Source: Campylobacterales bacterium
Lineage (GTDB): Bacteria > Campylobacterota > Campylobacteria > Campylobacterales > Nautiliaceae
Assembly: GCA_027023105.1 (NCBI GenBank)
Contig: JALVWY010000088.1
Coordinates: forward strand, 1-36,674
DNA length: 36,674 nt
Direction: 5' to 3'
Made by a program: the position numbers and the translations under genes. Under the pieces are notes generated by a model. The model was not told the DNA's origin. It did not search any database and was given only the letters and a program-made list of their open reading frames with translations. Shown piece by piece: positions 2,427 through 17,320 of this stretch (position 1 is its first letter; each line of letters opens with the position of its first letter).

Positions 2427-5039
2427 TTACCTTAAATAGTTAAGAAGCGTCAAATTATTAACTTTTGCGATACTCGCAAGAAGCGCCTGATATGAAAGTT
2501 TAAGTGAATTTAACTGCATAGACGCTTTTCCTATATCCGTATCAATATTATCCGATTGCAAAACGGTAATATGATTTTTTAGCATATCGGTTCTTTGAAT
2601 TGTCAAATCAAATTCCTGGGAAACAGCCCCTGTTGTGGCATCTTCTCTTCCGACTCTGTCCATTACATGTTCTATTGCTTCAAGTGCTCCTTGAATACCG
2701 AAATTTCTAGGGTCGCTAGAAGAGGCATTTGCATAATTTTGACCGTTTTTTACAGCGTCTATTGCTTTTTGTAAAGTTCCAAAAAAGTCAGTTTCCGGCT
2801 CGTCTATCGTTATTGCGTTGTTTTCTTGAAAAGAAAAATTATCTCCATACATTGATAATTCCATTTTAGTAGGTTGACTATTCAAATCTTTTACAAAAAA
2901 TTTTCCTTTATCGCCAATCCCTGCACTAACCTCTTTTTGGGCGTTTTGTAAAGCTTTATTATAATCTTCCTGAGTAGAAGAAGCCGGTAAATTATTTGTA
3001 ACTATCATTGAAACAACATCGCTTAATTGCTTAAATGTAACACCCTTTTGCAAAGTTTTCTCTTGACAAAGCTCACATGTATCCAGATTCATTGTTGTTT
3101 GAGTTGTTATTTTATCGTGTGCCGGAGTTTTTTCTCCGTTTTTATCCAAAATATCATAAGTATTACCATTTATACTAAAAGTGGATAAATGCCCGTCACT
3201 ATCGGGAGTATCTCTTAAAGTAACGGTAGCTGTATTAAAATTTCCGTTTATATCCCTAAATCTTATATTTATTGTCTGTGGATAACTACTCGGAGATAAA
3301 TTTATCGTATCTGCTAAAACAGTATTAAAATCAGCATAATGTTGAGCGTTTGAATTTTGTTTTGTTATTAATTGTCCATCATCATATTCATATTTATAAT
3401 CGGCTACTATTTGAGAGTAATTTGATATATTCAAATTACTCTTTTTCTCAAAAAAAAGTTCTTTAAAGTTCGCAACATCTTCGCTTCTGAAAGCCTGCAA
3501 GGCATTCCCGTTTGAATCTTCCGCTTCTAAAGAAATACTTAAATTGGATTTTTGAGTATTTGAAATTGAGTTGTCAACAATTTTCAATTCCCCGTTTTCC
3601 AAATATACATCTACATCTCCGTAATCGGATTTGATTTTATCCATTAAATCTTTCATTGTAGTTGTAGAAGTTATATCCAAATCATCGCTTACACTATTTC
3701 CATCGGTATCGGTTCTGCTAAGATGTATTTTTGCAATATCCTGAATTGTTCCATCACTGCTTCTAACGGCTTTTTCTCCTATTACATTTTGAAGTAAATT
3801 ATCCGGCAAGGCATCTTTTGAATTATCTTTTAATTTAAAATTAGAAAAAAATTTAAATGTTTTGTTATTGTCAATATTAGAAGCGGTAATAGTATCCAAA
3901 TTTCTTATGGAATCAAATTTACTTTTTTGAAAAGAAACTATATCATAGCCTCCGCTGATTAAATCTTTTATGGAAGTAGGGTCAGGCTGGGATTGCGAAA
4001 ACTTTCCTCCGGCAACCATATAAAAATCCGTAAGCATTTTCCCTGAATTTAAATCTTTTATTTGAATTTCTCCATCATTATTCAAACTGACATCCACATT
4101 TTTACTTGTGGAAGTATTTCCATAAATTTCCCCTATTTTATCAAGAAGTTTTTGAATTGAATCATCATTACTTAATGTAAACGATGTATCTATCACACTT
4201 CCATCGCTTTTTTTTCCTTTTATAAAGAAATAATTATTCCCGCTCGTATATGTCCCATCGGAATTTTTAAAATCGGTAATCCCAGTTAAAACCCTTAAAG
4301 GAGTAGTAGAAACGGCACTAGGATTAAGCATTGCTTTTTGAGGCTGTATATTCTCGTTAACGGCAATTGAATCTTCGGAATTGTTTTTATCAATATAAAG
4401 TTTTCCATCTTTTCCTCTTACGACAAACTGAGGGTTTGCTTTCATTTTGTCATATTGAATTACATTTAAAGTCGTGTGTTTTTTATAATCGTTATCTCTT
4501 CCTAAAAAAAGGCTTTTCCCATCAATATTATAAACCCTCTCAACTCCGGCACCTAAAAAAGCCTTAATTTTTTTATCATTTCCCTGATATTTGAAATTAT
4601 CATCAATAGGTTTTTTATTAAAAGTACTTCCAGTAAAAATATATTTCCCGTTGATTGAAGTATTTGCCAAATCTTTTAAATGAGTAAGCTCGGCTTCAAG
4701 CTCTTTTGCAATAGCCTGTCTGTTTGAAACATTATTGGTATCATTTGCCGCATCAAGAAGTTTTGTTTTAAAAGTTGTAAGAGTGTTTGTCATATCATTT
4801 AATGTAGTATCGGTTTCATTTGCAAAAGCTTTGGCAAAATTAGCACTGTTTTTAACCTGTTCAAAAGAGTTTATTTCTTCTTTGAAGCTTAAATCTTTTT
4901 CATAAATAACAGGATTATCATACATATTTTCTATTTTTTTACCGCTTGCAAGTTTGGTTTGAATTTTATTTAATTCACTCTAATCCTGTTGTTCGGAGTT
5001 AATAAAATTATTATAATAAGTAAACTGAGTAACTCTCAT
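2427..5039 (-). CDS. flgL: Flagellar hook-associated protein 3 FlgL, interrupted by in-frame TAG at 4980-4982
   Basis: ATG at 5037-5039 with AAAAAAAGG SD: MRVTQFTYYNNFINSEQQD*SELNKIQTKLASGKKIENMYDNPV...; C-terminus MQLNSLKLSYQALLASIAKVNNLTLLNYLR is flagellin/FlgL-like. Confidence 0.85.
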
Positions 5040-8165: not shown

Positions 8166-8493
8166 TTTTGCTCATCTCTTCCCAGCGTTTAATATCTTTT
8201 TTGCTTTCGTATTTAACAGTCATAAATTTTAGCAGTTCTTCGTTATATCTCATTTGTCTTTCAAGTTCTAAAACTGCGTCACCCGGTGCTTTGTAATAAA
8301 CTATATAATAATGACCTCTTTCAAATTTATTGATTGGATAAGCAAGTTGTCTAACTCCGATATTATCAACTGCAACTACTTCACCGCCTTTTTGTGCGAT
8401 TACATTTTTGATGTTTTCTACGATTGTCGCTTTTTCTTCATCGCTTAGTGTCGGCTTAAGAATAAAAAGCGTTTCATAATGTCTAAGACTCAT
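8158..8493 (-). CDS. rpsF: 30S ribosomal protein S6
   Basis: MSLRHYETLFILKPTLSDEE...RQLAYPINKFERGHYYIVYY; operon rpsF-ssb-rpsR. Confidence 0.97.
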   Translation of the reverse strand: MSLRHYETLFILKPTLSDEEKATIVENIKNVIAQKGGEVVAVDNIGVRQLAYPINKFERGHYYIVYYKAPGDAVLELERQMRYNEELLKFMTVKYESKKDIKRWEEMSKNV

Positions 8494-9822: not shown

Positions 9823-10563
9823 TCAACTTTTAGCAAGCTTGCTTATATAAGCATTTGAAACACCTAAAAATCTTGCCACTTCACTATATTTGTATCCGTT
9901 TGCTTTTGCAGCTTTTATAGCCTCTTTTTTATCTTTAAATTCTTCAAAAAATTCGGGAAGTTTTTTTCTTATAACTTTAAGCTCTCCATCAACCATTACA
10001 ATTTTAGGTTCTTTATAAATTTCATCAACAATATGTTTACCAAGGGGTTTATTCAGCCGGTTTATATATTCTTCAAGCGGTTTTGTTAAGATTTTGCTCT
10101 CTCTTATGATTTCGTTAAATTTTGTATTTTTAAGTCTAAGCGCTAAAGACTGATATTCCCATTTTTTTATATCTTTTACCAATCCTAAAGAAAGAGCATT
10201 TCTTTCTATATATTTTACAACATTCCAAAAATGTTCTTCATCAAAAAGCATATAACTATCAAATCTGCCTTTCCACAAATGCCCTACTCTTTTACTTTTA
10301 AAATTATACCAAGCGGCATACGCTGAATTTAAAAGTCTCATAGCTTCGCTTAAATTGTCTTTATGTGTCTGTATTAAAACATGATAATGAGTCGGCAAAA
10401 TTGTAAAAGCGTGAATGGTTACATTATAGTCATATGTAATTTTCAAAAGAAGTTCCAAAAATTTATGATAATCCTCTTTTTCAATAAAAACTTCGCTGTT
10501 ATTTACACCCCTATTTACAATATGATAAATACCAGCTTCATTAACTCTGAGTTTCCTTGCCAT
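9823..10563 (-). CDS. REP-associated-type (RAYT, HUH/Y1) transposase with C-terminal HTH
   Basis: GIYHIVNRGVN, HUH motif THYHVLIQ, GHLWKGRFDSYMLFDEEHFWNVVKYIERNAL, C-terminal YSEVARFLGVSNAYISKLAKS. Confidence 0.85.
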   Translation of the reverse strand: MARKLRVNEAGIYHIVNRGVNNSEVFIEKEDYHKFLELLLKITYDYNVTIHAFTILPTHYHVLIQTHKDNLSEAMRLLNSAYAAWYNFKSKRVGHLWKGRFDSYMLFDEEHFWNVVKYIERNALSLGLVKDIKKWEYQSLALRLKNTKFNEIIRESKILTKPLEEYINRLNKPLGKHIVDEIYKEPKIVMVDGELKVIRKKLPEFFEEFKDKKEAIKAAKANGYKYSEVARFLGVSNAYISKLAKS

Positions 10564-13118: not shown

Positions 13119-13680
13119 TAATTAACCTTTCATCAAAACTTAAAGATGATAAAATCAAAAATATCACCATAATCAAAAAATAAAAAGCCCCGTCTTTTGG
13201 AACAACAGAAACGCTTGCAAAATGCACCATTACCGCTAAAACAAAAACAACAAAAACATCAAGCAAAGACCAAGGACCCGAAACTTCTATGAATTTATAA
13301 AGCCTTTTTTTAAATTTAATAAACTTACACGATTTTATATCAATAATCAAATAAAAAAGTATAACAAATTTTAATAACGGAATTAAAACGGAAGCCAAAA
13401 AAACAATAATGGCAATAGGCACATCCCCGTCTTGCCAAAGCTCAAATATTCCACTTATAATCGTATTATTTGTAGAAGTGGCAAGTTTATTTGTTTGCAA
13501 TATAGGCTCAATATTTGCCGGAATATAAAAAACAATAGATGAGATTAAAAAAGCAAAAGAATTATAAACTGATATATAACTTTTCTTTACCTTAAATCCG
13601 CATCTTTTGCAATAAATATCATTCCCTTCATTTGTAAATCCGCAGTGCGGACATCTTACATATCTTCCCATATCTCCCAT
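13102..13680 (-). CDS. PqiA-domain membrane protein (second half)
   Basis: Zn ribbon RCPHCGFTNEGNDIYCKRCGFKV; PANIEPILQ; GPWSLLDVFVVFVLAVMV. Confidence 0.85.
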   Translation of the reverse strand: MGDMGRYVRCPHCGFTNEGNDIYCKRCGFKVKKSYISVYNSFAFLISSIVFYIPANIEPILQTNKLATSTNNTIISGIFELWQDGDVPIAIIVFLASVLIPLLKFVILFYLIIDIKSCKFIKFKKRLYKFIEVSGPWSLLDVFVVFVLAVMVHFASVSVVPKDGAFYFLIMVIFLILSSLSFDERLISEKCK

Positions 13681-14264
13681 AAAGATTCCACCTTTAAAAA
13701 TTTTATAATATAAATCAAAAAACCCAAAAACAATATATAAACCAAAAATCCGCCCCTGAAATCAACATCTGCAACATTCAAAAGTTTTATAACAGAGACC
13801 AAAACGGCAATCAAAAATATATCCGTAAAACACCAATCTTTTAAAACAGTAATAATTACCAAAAGATTTTTGGCAAATTTTTTATCAAATCCTGAAATAA
13901 AAAGCAAGGATAACATAAATAAAACAACTGTAAAAATAAAAGGAAATAAAATTACACTGAAAAATACAAATAAAGACAAAGAAACATATCCTTTAGAAAA
14001 AAGAAAAATAAAAGAGTTAATTATTTCAAGATTTTCTTCATATCCTGCAATATTAATATGAATAATAGGCAGTAACATTGCCAATACAAAAAAAACAATC
14101 ATAGCAATAGAAAAATTAAAAAGTCTGTATTTTACACAGTTAGTAGATTCATAAAGCCTTTTATTGCATACAGGACAAAAAGCCACCTCTTTTTGTTTAA
14201 GTTCTTTTTTTTCCAAAACATTTTCACATCTTGGACAAATAATAATATTTTTTTCATTTTTCAT
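13656..14264 (-). CDS. PqiA-domain membrane protein (first half)
   Basis: Zn ribbon CPRCENVLEKKELKQKEVAFCPVCNKRLY; DWCFTDIFLIAVLVSVIKL. Confidence 0.83.
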   Translation of the reverse strand: MKNEKNIIICPRCENVLEKKELKQKEVAFCPVCNKRLYESTNCVKYRLFNFSIAMIVFFVLAMLLPIIHINIAGYEENLEIINSFIFLFSKGYVSLSLFVFFSVILFPFIFTVVLFMLSLLFISGFDKKFAKNLLVIITVLKDWCFTDIFLIAVLVSVIKLLNVADVDFRGGFLVYILFLGFLIYIIKFLKVESLWEIWEDM

Positions 14265-14279
14265 AAGGAATTAAATTTT

Positions 14280-15467
14280 TCAAATTTGAACTCCATAAAA
14301 TTGATACAATTTAGATTTATCTATCAAAATAGAATTTTCTTTTAATTTTTTTTCTCTTTTTTCCAACAATAAATCAAGAAGTCGCTTTTTTTCATTATCA
14401 GTTGCTAAATGTATTTTTCTATGACAATTTGGACATAAAGCCACTAAATTATCTACAACATCAATACTAACATCAAATTCATTTCTTTTAGAAAATGGAA
14501 TTAAATGATGGGCTTCTACATACTTTTGATTATTTGCTTTTGATATAAAAGTTATATGATCATTATTTATTTCACATTCATAATTTGCTTTCGCTTTTGC
14601 TTCTTCTTTTACATTTACATTAGAATAAATCACTTCATCTTCACTATCAAAATCAAAATACTGTAATCTATACTCTTTTGCCTTTTCTAATTTTTCCTCT
14701 TTTGAAAGCCCTTTTATTGATAAAGCAAATTCATTTATTTCTAAATTTTTAGTTTTTAAATTATTTTCAATCCCTTTATAATCTTCATCATAAAAAACAA
14801 ATCCATCATCACTCTTTAAAATTTTATGTTTTATAACTTGATAATATTCAATTAAAAAAGGTCTAAAAAAACCATAATTTCCAGCATAATATTCTAACGA
14901 AAGTCTAAATTGATCATTTTTTGTATGAGATTCTTTTTGTAAAATTCTTGGATTATAATTGAAACTAAAACCTAATAAATTATACATTGTATTTAATTTT
15001 CTTTTGGTTATTTCATCATCTTTTGCAATATCTATACTAAAAAGTTTAGCTGTGAAATCTAAACTTCCTCTACCATCCATAAATCCAATTAAAAACCATT
15101 TTTTAAAATCATCATCTAAATCTATTAAATATTTTTCAATAACTCCATAAATTTTATTATTATCTATATCATTTTCTAAAACTACACTAACACCCAACAA
15201 CTTTTTTCTATTAAATTGATAATCTATATCATTATTTAATTCAACTTGAAACTCTTTACCCAAAAATTTTTGTAATTTTTCTTTATGCTCTATATAAAAC
15301 TTTTTTATATTTTTAGTTAAAACTTTTTCACTTTTAGAACCAAATTTATAAGCACTATATGCTAAAATAATTTTAGAATCTTTACTTATCATTGGCCAAG
15401 CATATATCATACCTAATAAAAAAGCTGATTTTTCATCAAAACAATTTAGCAGTTGGCTTAACTTCAC
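14280..15467 (-). CDS. Putative type II restriction endonuclease: LAGLIDADG-like N-terminal region + C-terminal HNH (GTG start)
   Basis: AFLLGMIYAWPMI and WFLIGFMDGRGSLDF (LAGLIDADG-like pair); HNH VEAHHLIPFSKRN...DNLVALCPNCHRKIH; overlaps two methyltransferase genes; AAAGGAG SD before GTG. Confidence 0.75.
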   Translation of the reverse strand: MKLSQLLNCFDEKSAFLLGMIYAWPMISKDSKIILAYSAYKFGSKSEKVLTKNIKKFYIEHKEKLQKFLGKEFQVELNNDIDYQFNRKKLLGVSVVLENDIDNNKIYGVIEKYLIDLDDDFKKWFLIGFMDGRGSLDFTAKLFSIDIAKDDEITKRKLNTMYNLLGFSFNYNPRILQKESHTKNDQFRLSLEYYAGNYGFFRPFLIEYYQVIKHKILKSDDGFVFYDEDYKGIENNLKTKNLEINEFALSIKGLSKEEKLEKAKEYRLQYFDFDSEDEVIYSNVNVKEEAKAKANYECEINNDHITFISKANNQKYVEAHHLIPFSKRNEFDVSIDVVDNLVALCPNCHRKIHLATDNEKKRLLDLLLEKREKKLKENSILIDKSKLYQFYGVQI

Positions 15468-16095
15468 TTACTCTCCTTTTTGTAATCTCTACAAATTCAG
15501 AATTTATATCCCCTACTATAAATTTACGATTTAATTTTTTAGCGGCTACGGCTGTAGTCCCACTTCCTACAAATGGGTCACATACTAAATCCCCTTGATT
15601 TGAACTTACTTCTATTAAATATTCAAAAAGTTTAAGAGGCTTTTGAGTTGGATGAATTTTGCTACTTCCATTTGGGAATCTAACTACACTATTTTTATAA
15701 TGCTCATTAAATACCGCTCCTCTTTTTTTGAAATACACAAATGTTTCAATCCCACTCATCCATACATGTTGACAATTCATAGGAGATGGATTTGTTTTTT
15801 CCCATATCATTAGCCTTGTAGTAAGTCCAACTTCATCAAAAAATTGAAAAATTTGACTAACCTGTTCTTTTCCACAAAAAATATATCCACTTCCCTTCGT
15901 AACTCTATAAACTTCTTCTAAAAATTTATCTAATTTAAATGTCATTGTATTTGCTTCTTTTTTGTCTAATACTCTAAGTCCATTTGATTTTTTATTCACT
16001 TTTTCATACGGGATATCAGTAAGCATTAAATCTATACTATTTTTATCTAAATCTCTAAGTAATTCTATCGCATCTTTACACTCTATTCGATTCAT
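15436..16095 (-). CDS. DNA N6-adenine/N4-cytosine methyltransferase, beta-class motif order
   Basis: Motif IV LTDIPY before motif I CDPFVGSGTTAVAA; HPTQKPLKLFEYLI. Confidence 0.9.
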   Translation of the reverse strand: MNRIECKDAIELLRDLDKNSIDLMLTDIPYEKVNKKSNGLRVLDKKEANTMTFKLDKFLEEVYRVTKGSGYIFCGKEQVSQIFQFFDEVGLTTRLMIWEKTNPSPMNCQHVWMSGIETFVYFKKRGAVFNEHYKNSVVRFPNGSSKIHPTQKPLKLFEYLIEVSSNQGDLVCDPFVGSGTTAVAAKKLNRKFIVGDINSEFVEITKRRVSEVKPTAKLF

Positions 16096-17137
16096 TACAT
16101 TCCTTATAATGATTTAAAATATGTTCAGCTATTCCCTTTGCCATAAGTGGAGGTACTGCATTTCCAATTTGTTTAATTATTGAGCTTTTTGGTCCATAAA
16201 AAATAAAATCATCTGGAAAAGATTGAAGTCTTGCAGCTTCTCTTGGAGTTATTGCTCTATGTAAAAATGGATGTGAATTTTTACCATTTGAAGGAGTGTC
16301 AAATCTTGTAATAATTGTAGGCGAAGGTTTATCTTTTTCAAGTCTTCCCCATGTTTGTCCAAATGTTGAAGTTATTTTTTCATCTAAATACTCTTTTCCA
16401 CATTCAGGTGGAATCTTTTTTAATCTATCAATTGCTATTTTTGAATGATTTGTAGCTTTATGGTTATAAAGTTTCTTAGAGTTTTTTCTCATCTTTTTTT
16501 GATATTCACTTTGTGGTGGAAATTTATATTTACTCTCAAATTCACCTTCACCACTTTCTAAATAAGCTAAATCACTAATAGCATCCCATACCGTTACAAT
16601 TTCACTTGAAACTTGTGGTAATTTAATTCCTGCAAGTTTTGAACCTATAAAAATCGCTCTTTTTCTTTTTTGAGGAACTCCAAAATCTAAACTATTTAAA
16701 ACTCCTACATCTACAAAATATCCTAAATTTTCAAAGGCTTTTTTTATCTCATTTTTAAAAAATCCGCCACTATCACTCAGCATTGCAACTACATTCTCTA
16801 ATACAAAGTATTTAGGCTTAAAAAATTCTACAAACTTTATATATTCTTTAAATAAAAAATTTCTTTCATCATCTAAACCTCTTCTTTTCCCTTTTAACGA
16901 AAATCCTTGACAAGGAGGACCACCAATAATTACATCAACATCCCCTATTCTAGTTTTAATATTATCTAAATCCATATTTCTAATATCACCACAAAAGGCA
17001 TAGGCATTTGGATGATTTTTTGCAAATGATTTTGAGATAAATTCATCATATTCTATACCAGCTATACATTCAAATTCAGCCATCTCAAAACCATAGCTCA
17101 TTCCTCCAACACCACTAAATAAATCTAAAACTTTGAT
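16076..17137 (-). CDS. DNA (cytosine-5) methyltransferase; probable ATC start at 17135-17137
   Basis: PCQGFSLKGKR, ENV, QKRKRAIFIGS, QIGNAVPPLMAKGIA; motif I KVLDLFSGVGG is encoded upstream of the first ATG (17101). Confidence 0.92.
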   Translation of the reverse strand: MKVLDLFSGVGGMSYGFEMAEFECIAGIEYDEFISKSFAKNHPNAYAFCGDIRNMDLDNIKTRIGDVDVIIGGPPCQGFSLKGKRRGLDDERNFLFKEYIKFVEFFKPKYFVLENVVAMLSDSGGFFKNEIKKAFENLGYFVDVGVLNSLDFGVPQKRKRAIFIGSKLAGIKLPQVSSEIVTVWDAISDLAYLESGEGEFESKYKFPPQSEYQKKMRKNSKKLYNHKATNHSKIAIDRLKKIPPECGKEYLDEKITSTFGQTWGRLEKDKPSPTIITRFDTPSNGKNSHPFLHRAITPREAARLQSFPDDFIFYGPKSSIIKQIGNAVPPLMAKGIAEHILNHYKECNESNRV

Positions 17138-17185
17138 AAGAACTCCTTTTTTAAGATTTTATTCAAATAAAAAATTATTAATAAT

Positions 17186-17194
17186 ATTTTAGCA
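17186..17194 (-). promoter_or_regulatory. Candidate extended -10 (TGCTAAAAT) for the R-M operon
   Basis: Minus strand TTTTTTTTGCTAAAAT, resembling the Campylobacter-type T-tract + TGnTAnAAT promoter. Confidence 0.45.
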
Positions 17195-17243
17195 AAAAAA
17201 ATTAGAAAATAAAAGTGTCAGAGAATATATTGAGCTAAAACAA

Positions 17244-17320
<77 letters not shown>

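Follow-up and report, generated by a model that had tools for sequence, protein, structure and literature searches.

An ATC where the start codon is expected in a C5-cytosine DNA methyltransferase gene of a type II restriction-modification operon of a Campylobacterales bacterium

The C5-cytosine DNA methyltransferase gene of a three-gene restriction-modification (R-M) operon in this Campylobacterales draft genome appears to have its initiation site, or to have had it until recently, at the position of an ATC codon. The gene, which we will call M1 (353 codons from ATC, 16076–17137, minus strand), lies in the 36,674-nt stretch of contig JALVWY010000088.1 analysed here, referred to below as the window. 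The initiation site is placed at ATC because of the spacing of the Shine-Dalgarno (SD) sequence and because this codon aligns exactly with the initiator Met in M.HaeIII and in 29 relatives. The sequence fixes the position of the site, but neither which codon the living cell has there nor whether it is used. We hold genuine, if weak, initiation at ATC to be the likeliest single reading and about an even call; the weights we attach to this and to the other explanations are judgements and not computed probabilities.

The minus strand at 17161–17096 reads TAA AAT CTT AAA AAA GGA GTT CTT ATC AAA GTT TTA GAT TTA TTT AGT GGT GTT GGA GGA ATG, exactly as quoted in the original prediction. From the in-frame TAA stop that closes the M1 frame upstream (17159–17161, minus strand) to catalytic motif I there is not a single ATG, GTG or TTG in the M1 frame, and the ATC at 17137–17135 is the only codon in this interval that is one base off ATG, which makes it the sole near-cognate codon in frame. 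A GGAG had been noted 5 nt ahead of the ATC, and the SD proves even stronger than that, being a 7-nt match to the anti-SD, AAAGGAG (17143–17149, minus strand), with a 5-nt spacer. Counting both strands, the window has 1158 ATC triplets. Only one of them (0.09%), M1’s own, has such a 7-nt SD at a distance of 3–12 nt, and 0.7% reach an equally good SD duplex energy. AAAGGAG with identical spacing also heads other genes of the window, with starts at 8493, 8677 and, for the nuclease gene of the operon, 15467. Two of the features expected of a genuine ATH start, the lack of a canonical alternative and a strong SD at the right distance, are present in M1. Further upstream, a possible extended -10 element for the operon, TGcTAAAAT (17186–17194, minus strand), was spotted by eye; it was not picked up by a promoter scan of the minus strand over 17100–17260, which returned no promoter-like site.

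Could translation begin downstream instead? The first canonical in-frame start is the ATG at 17099–17101 (minus strand), codon 13 of M1, and it even has a GGAGG just ahead. This GGAGG is, however, 1 nt away, too near for a normal SD, and a start here would remove DLFSGVGG, as was correctly pointed out in the original prediction. The shortened product, devoid of the DLFSG-G that is invariant in the subgroup bar one residue, could not bind SAM normally, and we regard a start at 17101 as very improbable.

When read from ATC, M1 matches positions 1–323 of the 324 positions of PF00145 from its residue 1 (Pfam, E 6e-77), as well as TIGR00675 and the PADLOC type II methyltransferase models. Motif I, the SAM-binding loop DLFSGxGG, is part of the protein only if translation begins at or before ATC, while GGPPCQGFS at residues 72–80 and ENV at residues 114–116 represent motif IV (PCQ) and motif VI (ENV). 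Residues invariant among six aligned relatives of 50–56% identity, including DLF-G-GG, GGPPCQGFS and ENV, are all kept in M1. M.HaeIII (PDB 1dct) belongs to the same family and can be followed residue to residue from residue 3, which pairs with residue 3 of M1, and therefore ATC falls on the position of Met1. The two genes differ in that M.HaeIII has ATG where M1 has ATC, and the target-recognition region of M1 is unlike that of M.HaeIII, hence the recognition site is presumably another one.

Motif I could also be reached by a route on which the ATC start would be unneeded. In the +1-offset frame ahead of the M1 frame the sequence TTG AAT AAA ATC TTA AAA AAG provides an upstream TTG start followed by A AAA AAG, a slippery heptamer of the dnaX type, so a -1 shift on this heptamer would lead into the M1 frame and yield the N-terminal peptide MNKILKKGVLIK. 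The TTG is, however, preceded by no SD, runs of A are common at 29% G+C, AAAGGAG would be left purposeless and no such arrangement is found among the relatives listed, which makes frameshifting the least credible of the explanations weighed here.

If ATC is the start, how common are such starts in the family? We tabulated the N-termini of 158 distinct aligned relatives of M1. A canonical start (ATG, GTG or TTG) precedes motif I in 157 of them, and 29 have ATG at the exact position of the M1 ATC; ATC itself serves as the start in none and ATA in one. A close orthologue (>60% identity) was found neither among 200 relatives nor in about 400 genomes of the order, about 400 of the phylum, GTDB contigs, viral contigs, plasmids and phages, the best match being 58% identical. 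The nearest parallel is an intact phage m5C gene (IMGVR_UViG_3300038318_000290, positions 4001–4951), where ATA, sitting at the same position as the M1 ATC and equipped with the SD AGGAAG, is the sole start-like codon before motif I; this gene is a singleton, with no close relatives in the viral contigs.

Viral contigs were also scanned with the pattern GGAG-N4-9-[ATH, A(A/C/G)G or ATG]-motif I, which gave 7 matches with ATH, none with A(A/C/G)G and at least 120 with ATG. Four of the 7 ATH matches have an upstream in-frame ATG. Another, at position 1086 of IMGVR_UViG_2693429913_000004, is a methyltransferase start of the form AAAGGAGGGATAGATA-ATA, without a canonical start, in a frame that ends after 31 codons, and the gene looks like a decaying one. 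Two further matches (L208:1269 and L212:8054) represent one near-identical phage gene, in which the ATG behind GGAGG is out of frame and the gene’s own frame offers only ATA, consistent with either a shared frameshift or a true ATA start. With no clear enrichment and no clean intact case among the 7 matches, a family-wide habit of ATH starts was rejected.

A genome-wide habit fared no better. The 1.29-Mb assembly contains 67 AAAGGAG-N4-6-ATH sites, and inspection of the stretches around them revealed that M1 alone opens a long ORF that lacks a nearby canonical start; at four other sites ATG is the very next codon. The infC gene of the assembly begins ATG AGT AAA GAC. On the strength of this survey and of infC on ATG, a general use of ATH starts in this genome was rejected, and IF3 autoregulation of the infC type, which would have the lineage’s infC on ATH, is not seen here either, since infC starts with ATG. 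Judged by these searches, the M1 ATC stands almost alone in its family and has no counterpart in its genome.

This isolation bears directly on the possibility that the C in the third position stems from a consensus or assembly error, or belongs to a minority strain variant; the gene would then be an ordinary one with ATG as its real start. The start is canonical in nearly all aligned relatives, often with ATG at the very place, the M1 case has no companion within the assembly, and the assembly, examined here as consensus sequence, comprises 179 draft contigs (89.75% complete, 1.82% contamination). However, three start-codon bases are a small target for error and the adjoining genes of the operon are undisturbed. 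We consider a miscall unlikely. The same facts count against weak initiation at ATC, namely that no relative uses ATC, that no second startless long ORF lies behind AAAGGAG, that infC is on ATG and that the genome is a 179-contig draft.

The operon around M1 provides an argument that the gene is needed. Three overlapping genes are found on the minus strand at 17137–14280, in the order M1 (m5C), M2 (N4/N6) and HNH nuclease, called MTase_II, MTase_II and REase_II, respectively, by PADLOC. M2 is an N4/N6 DNA methyltransferase of 219 aa (15436–16095, minus strand; PF01555) with an ATG and the SD AAGGA, and its start overlaps the end of M1 by 20 nt. R, an HNH restriction endonuclease of 395 aa (14280–15467, minus strand; PF13391/PF01844), overlaps M2 by 32 nt and starts with GTG behind AAAGGAG with a 5-nt spacer. 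The PADLOC REase_II model PDLC03514 covers residues 16–365 of R, and PDLC03279, a model of a fused M1-M2 protein with 587 positions, matches M1 with its first part and M2 with its second. The operon thus has the composition of a type II R-M system, with cognate methyltransferases beside a nuclease in one operon. The Pfam matches of R are confined to its HNH end; in its N-terminal part a GFMDGRGSLDF stretch recalls the motifs of LAGLIDADG homing enzymes. We take the HphI and HpyAVI-like layouts to be the closest type II R-M systems with m5C and N4/N6 methyltransferases and an HNH nuclease, and the window operon shares with them the placing of M1 beside M2 and the nuclease. It differs from known relatives of such systems in the ATC start and in M1, the best identity of which is about 50–58%. 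The same M1-M2 pair occurs in relatives from Campylobacterota-like, Firmicute and phage genomes and in other genomes of the order, in some of them apparently fused.

The claim that the partner nuclease is intact was borne out by Pfam and PADLOC, and extends to M2, as both genes are free of premature stops and frameshifts. An active nuclease would therefore select for a working M1. That M1 is needed would follow from the intact nuclease, because where each strand has its own methyltransferase, replication in the presence of a dead M1 would produce one daughter duplex lacking modification. An active methyltransferase, as originally anticipated, finds some reason in the intact nuclease and M2, and would remain an expectation from the sequence.

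The opposite outcome would be a real and recent ATG-to-ATC mutation that has effectively switched M1 off; the R-M system would then be starting to decay, its nuclease being silent or lost. R-M systems are frequently gained and lost, congeners are without this operon, ATC is kept by no relative, and the identical SD, frame and alignment are just what is expected shortly after such a mutation. On the other hand, the three genes of the operon show no other damage, being free of premature stops and frameshifts, a nuclease with a strong SD would be toxic without M1, and with a strong SD ahead of it ATC would probably still let some translation through. We regard loss of the start as rather unlikely.

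The operon is a horizontal insertion between tRNA-Asp and pqiA. Its left boundary is tRNA-Asp (17244–17320, minus strand), the last of a Lys-Glu-Val-Asp cluster, and directly downstream of the operon lies a pqiA-like gene (13656–14264, minus strand), which adjoins the tRNA cluster in congeners. In two of these (G004 and G002) pqiA sits directly beside the Lys-Glu-Val-Asp cluster, with 540–680 nt from pqiA to a moxR-type gene, and M1 is absent from all congeners tested. The window is homologous to the empty site only as far as about 17210, ahead of the SD, and therefore the M1 start region belongs to the inserted module. A leader fusion or a chimeric start created by the insertion junction was ruled out on the same grounds, as the homology ends well before the SD. 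In the congeners (loci L161 and L162 of G004 and G002, respectively) an extended -10-like element is found no more than about 10 nt from the start codon of pqiA; the gene there seems to have its own promoter between tRNA-Asp and the gene, and the arrangement suggests a leaderless pqiA transcript. In the window the R-M insertion parts pqiA from the extended -10-like element, and pqiA, which starts 15 nt past the nuclease stop, may now depend on the R-M transcript. Near the pqi genes an ORF at 9823–10563 resembles REP-associated tyrosine transposases, below the NCBIfam cut-off.

The use of ATC is mechanistically ordinary though rare, because non-canonical starts behind strong SDs are known. Streptomyces infC begins with ATC and that of E. 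coli with ATT, and Streptomyces sigR starts with GTC behind a strong SD in a coupled operon and is repressed by IF3 (PMC5472188). In S. aureus infC starts with AUA, and ccpN (AUA), cvfC1 (AUU) and citZ (AUA) reach about 10–30% of the AUG reporter expression; these three starts, measured by Ribo-Ret and reporters, mostly have an extended SD (PMC13009471). An E. coli N-terminomics set includes one ATC upstream start (PMC13245402). M1 resembles infC and sigR in having a non-canonical start behind a strong SD, but those starts are conserved and tested, while the M1 ATC is known from one draft genome sequence. It likewise shares an ATH start with ccpN, cvfC1 and citZ of S. aureus and, with most of them, an extended SD, but their codons are AUA and AUU instead of AUC and they come from a different phylum.

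What is shown directly for weak initiation at ATC is the reading frame with its SD and motif, its alignment and the anatomy of the operon. With the 7-nt SD at the right distance, the initiator tRNA would be positioned on ATC in spite of the mismatch at the third base, and full-length M1 would be produced at a reduced level, sufficient for a catalytic protein. This presumes that the organism truly has ATC here and that its ribosomes start on it. The three readings, weak initiation at ATC, recent mutation and miscall, are inseparable by sequence because SD, frame, motif and alignment look alike under each of them. Genuine initiation at ATC, as favoured by the original prediction, is accordingly not singled out, as a one-base consensus error or a recent loss of ATG would leave these features, motifs included, as they are.

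Is the weak start then a regulatory device? It had been suggested that it throttles the expression of the methyltransferase in the R-M operon. We find no comparative support for this, as the codon is absent from relatives and the pattern from other genes of the assembly. Moreover, R has its own AAAGGAG, 5-nt spacer and GTG, so a weak M1 start need not throttle R. It would therefore tilt the balance in the dangerous direction, toward the nuclease, unless translation is coupled through the overlaps; that R would outpace a weak M1 start also counts against weak initiation at ATC. In the PvuII system the overlapping C and R genes are translated independently (PMC2997769). One could imagine that ATC was selected since it holds M1 at a low, IF3-sensitive level. 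Modification, and with it any leak of protection to the DNA of invading phages, would thus be limited, and the strong SDs of M2 and R would maintain the translation of these two genes. Such selection is improbable in our view, and a selected regulatory ATC is currently unsupported by positive evidence. A balance of methyltransferase and nuclease based on start codons is not described, and the term ‘start codon’ is absent, in a review on R-M regulation (PMC3874152).

In the case of a miscall or a fresh mutation the M1 ATC would be of value only as an annotation note. If, however, the codon is real and the enzyme active, M1 would represent a natural AUC start in a defence gene, beyond the few documented cases. 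Gene callers that insist on ATG, GTG or TTG would then lose the SAM-binding motif of M1, and the weakness of a start codon as the setter of the methyltransferase to nuclease ratio would become testable.
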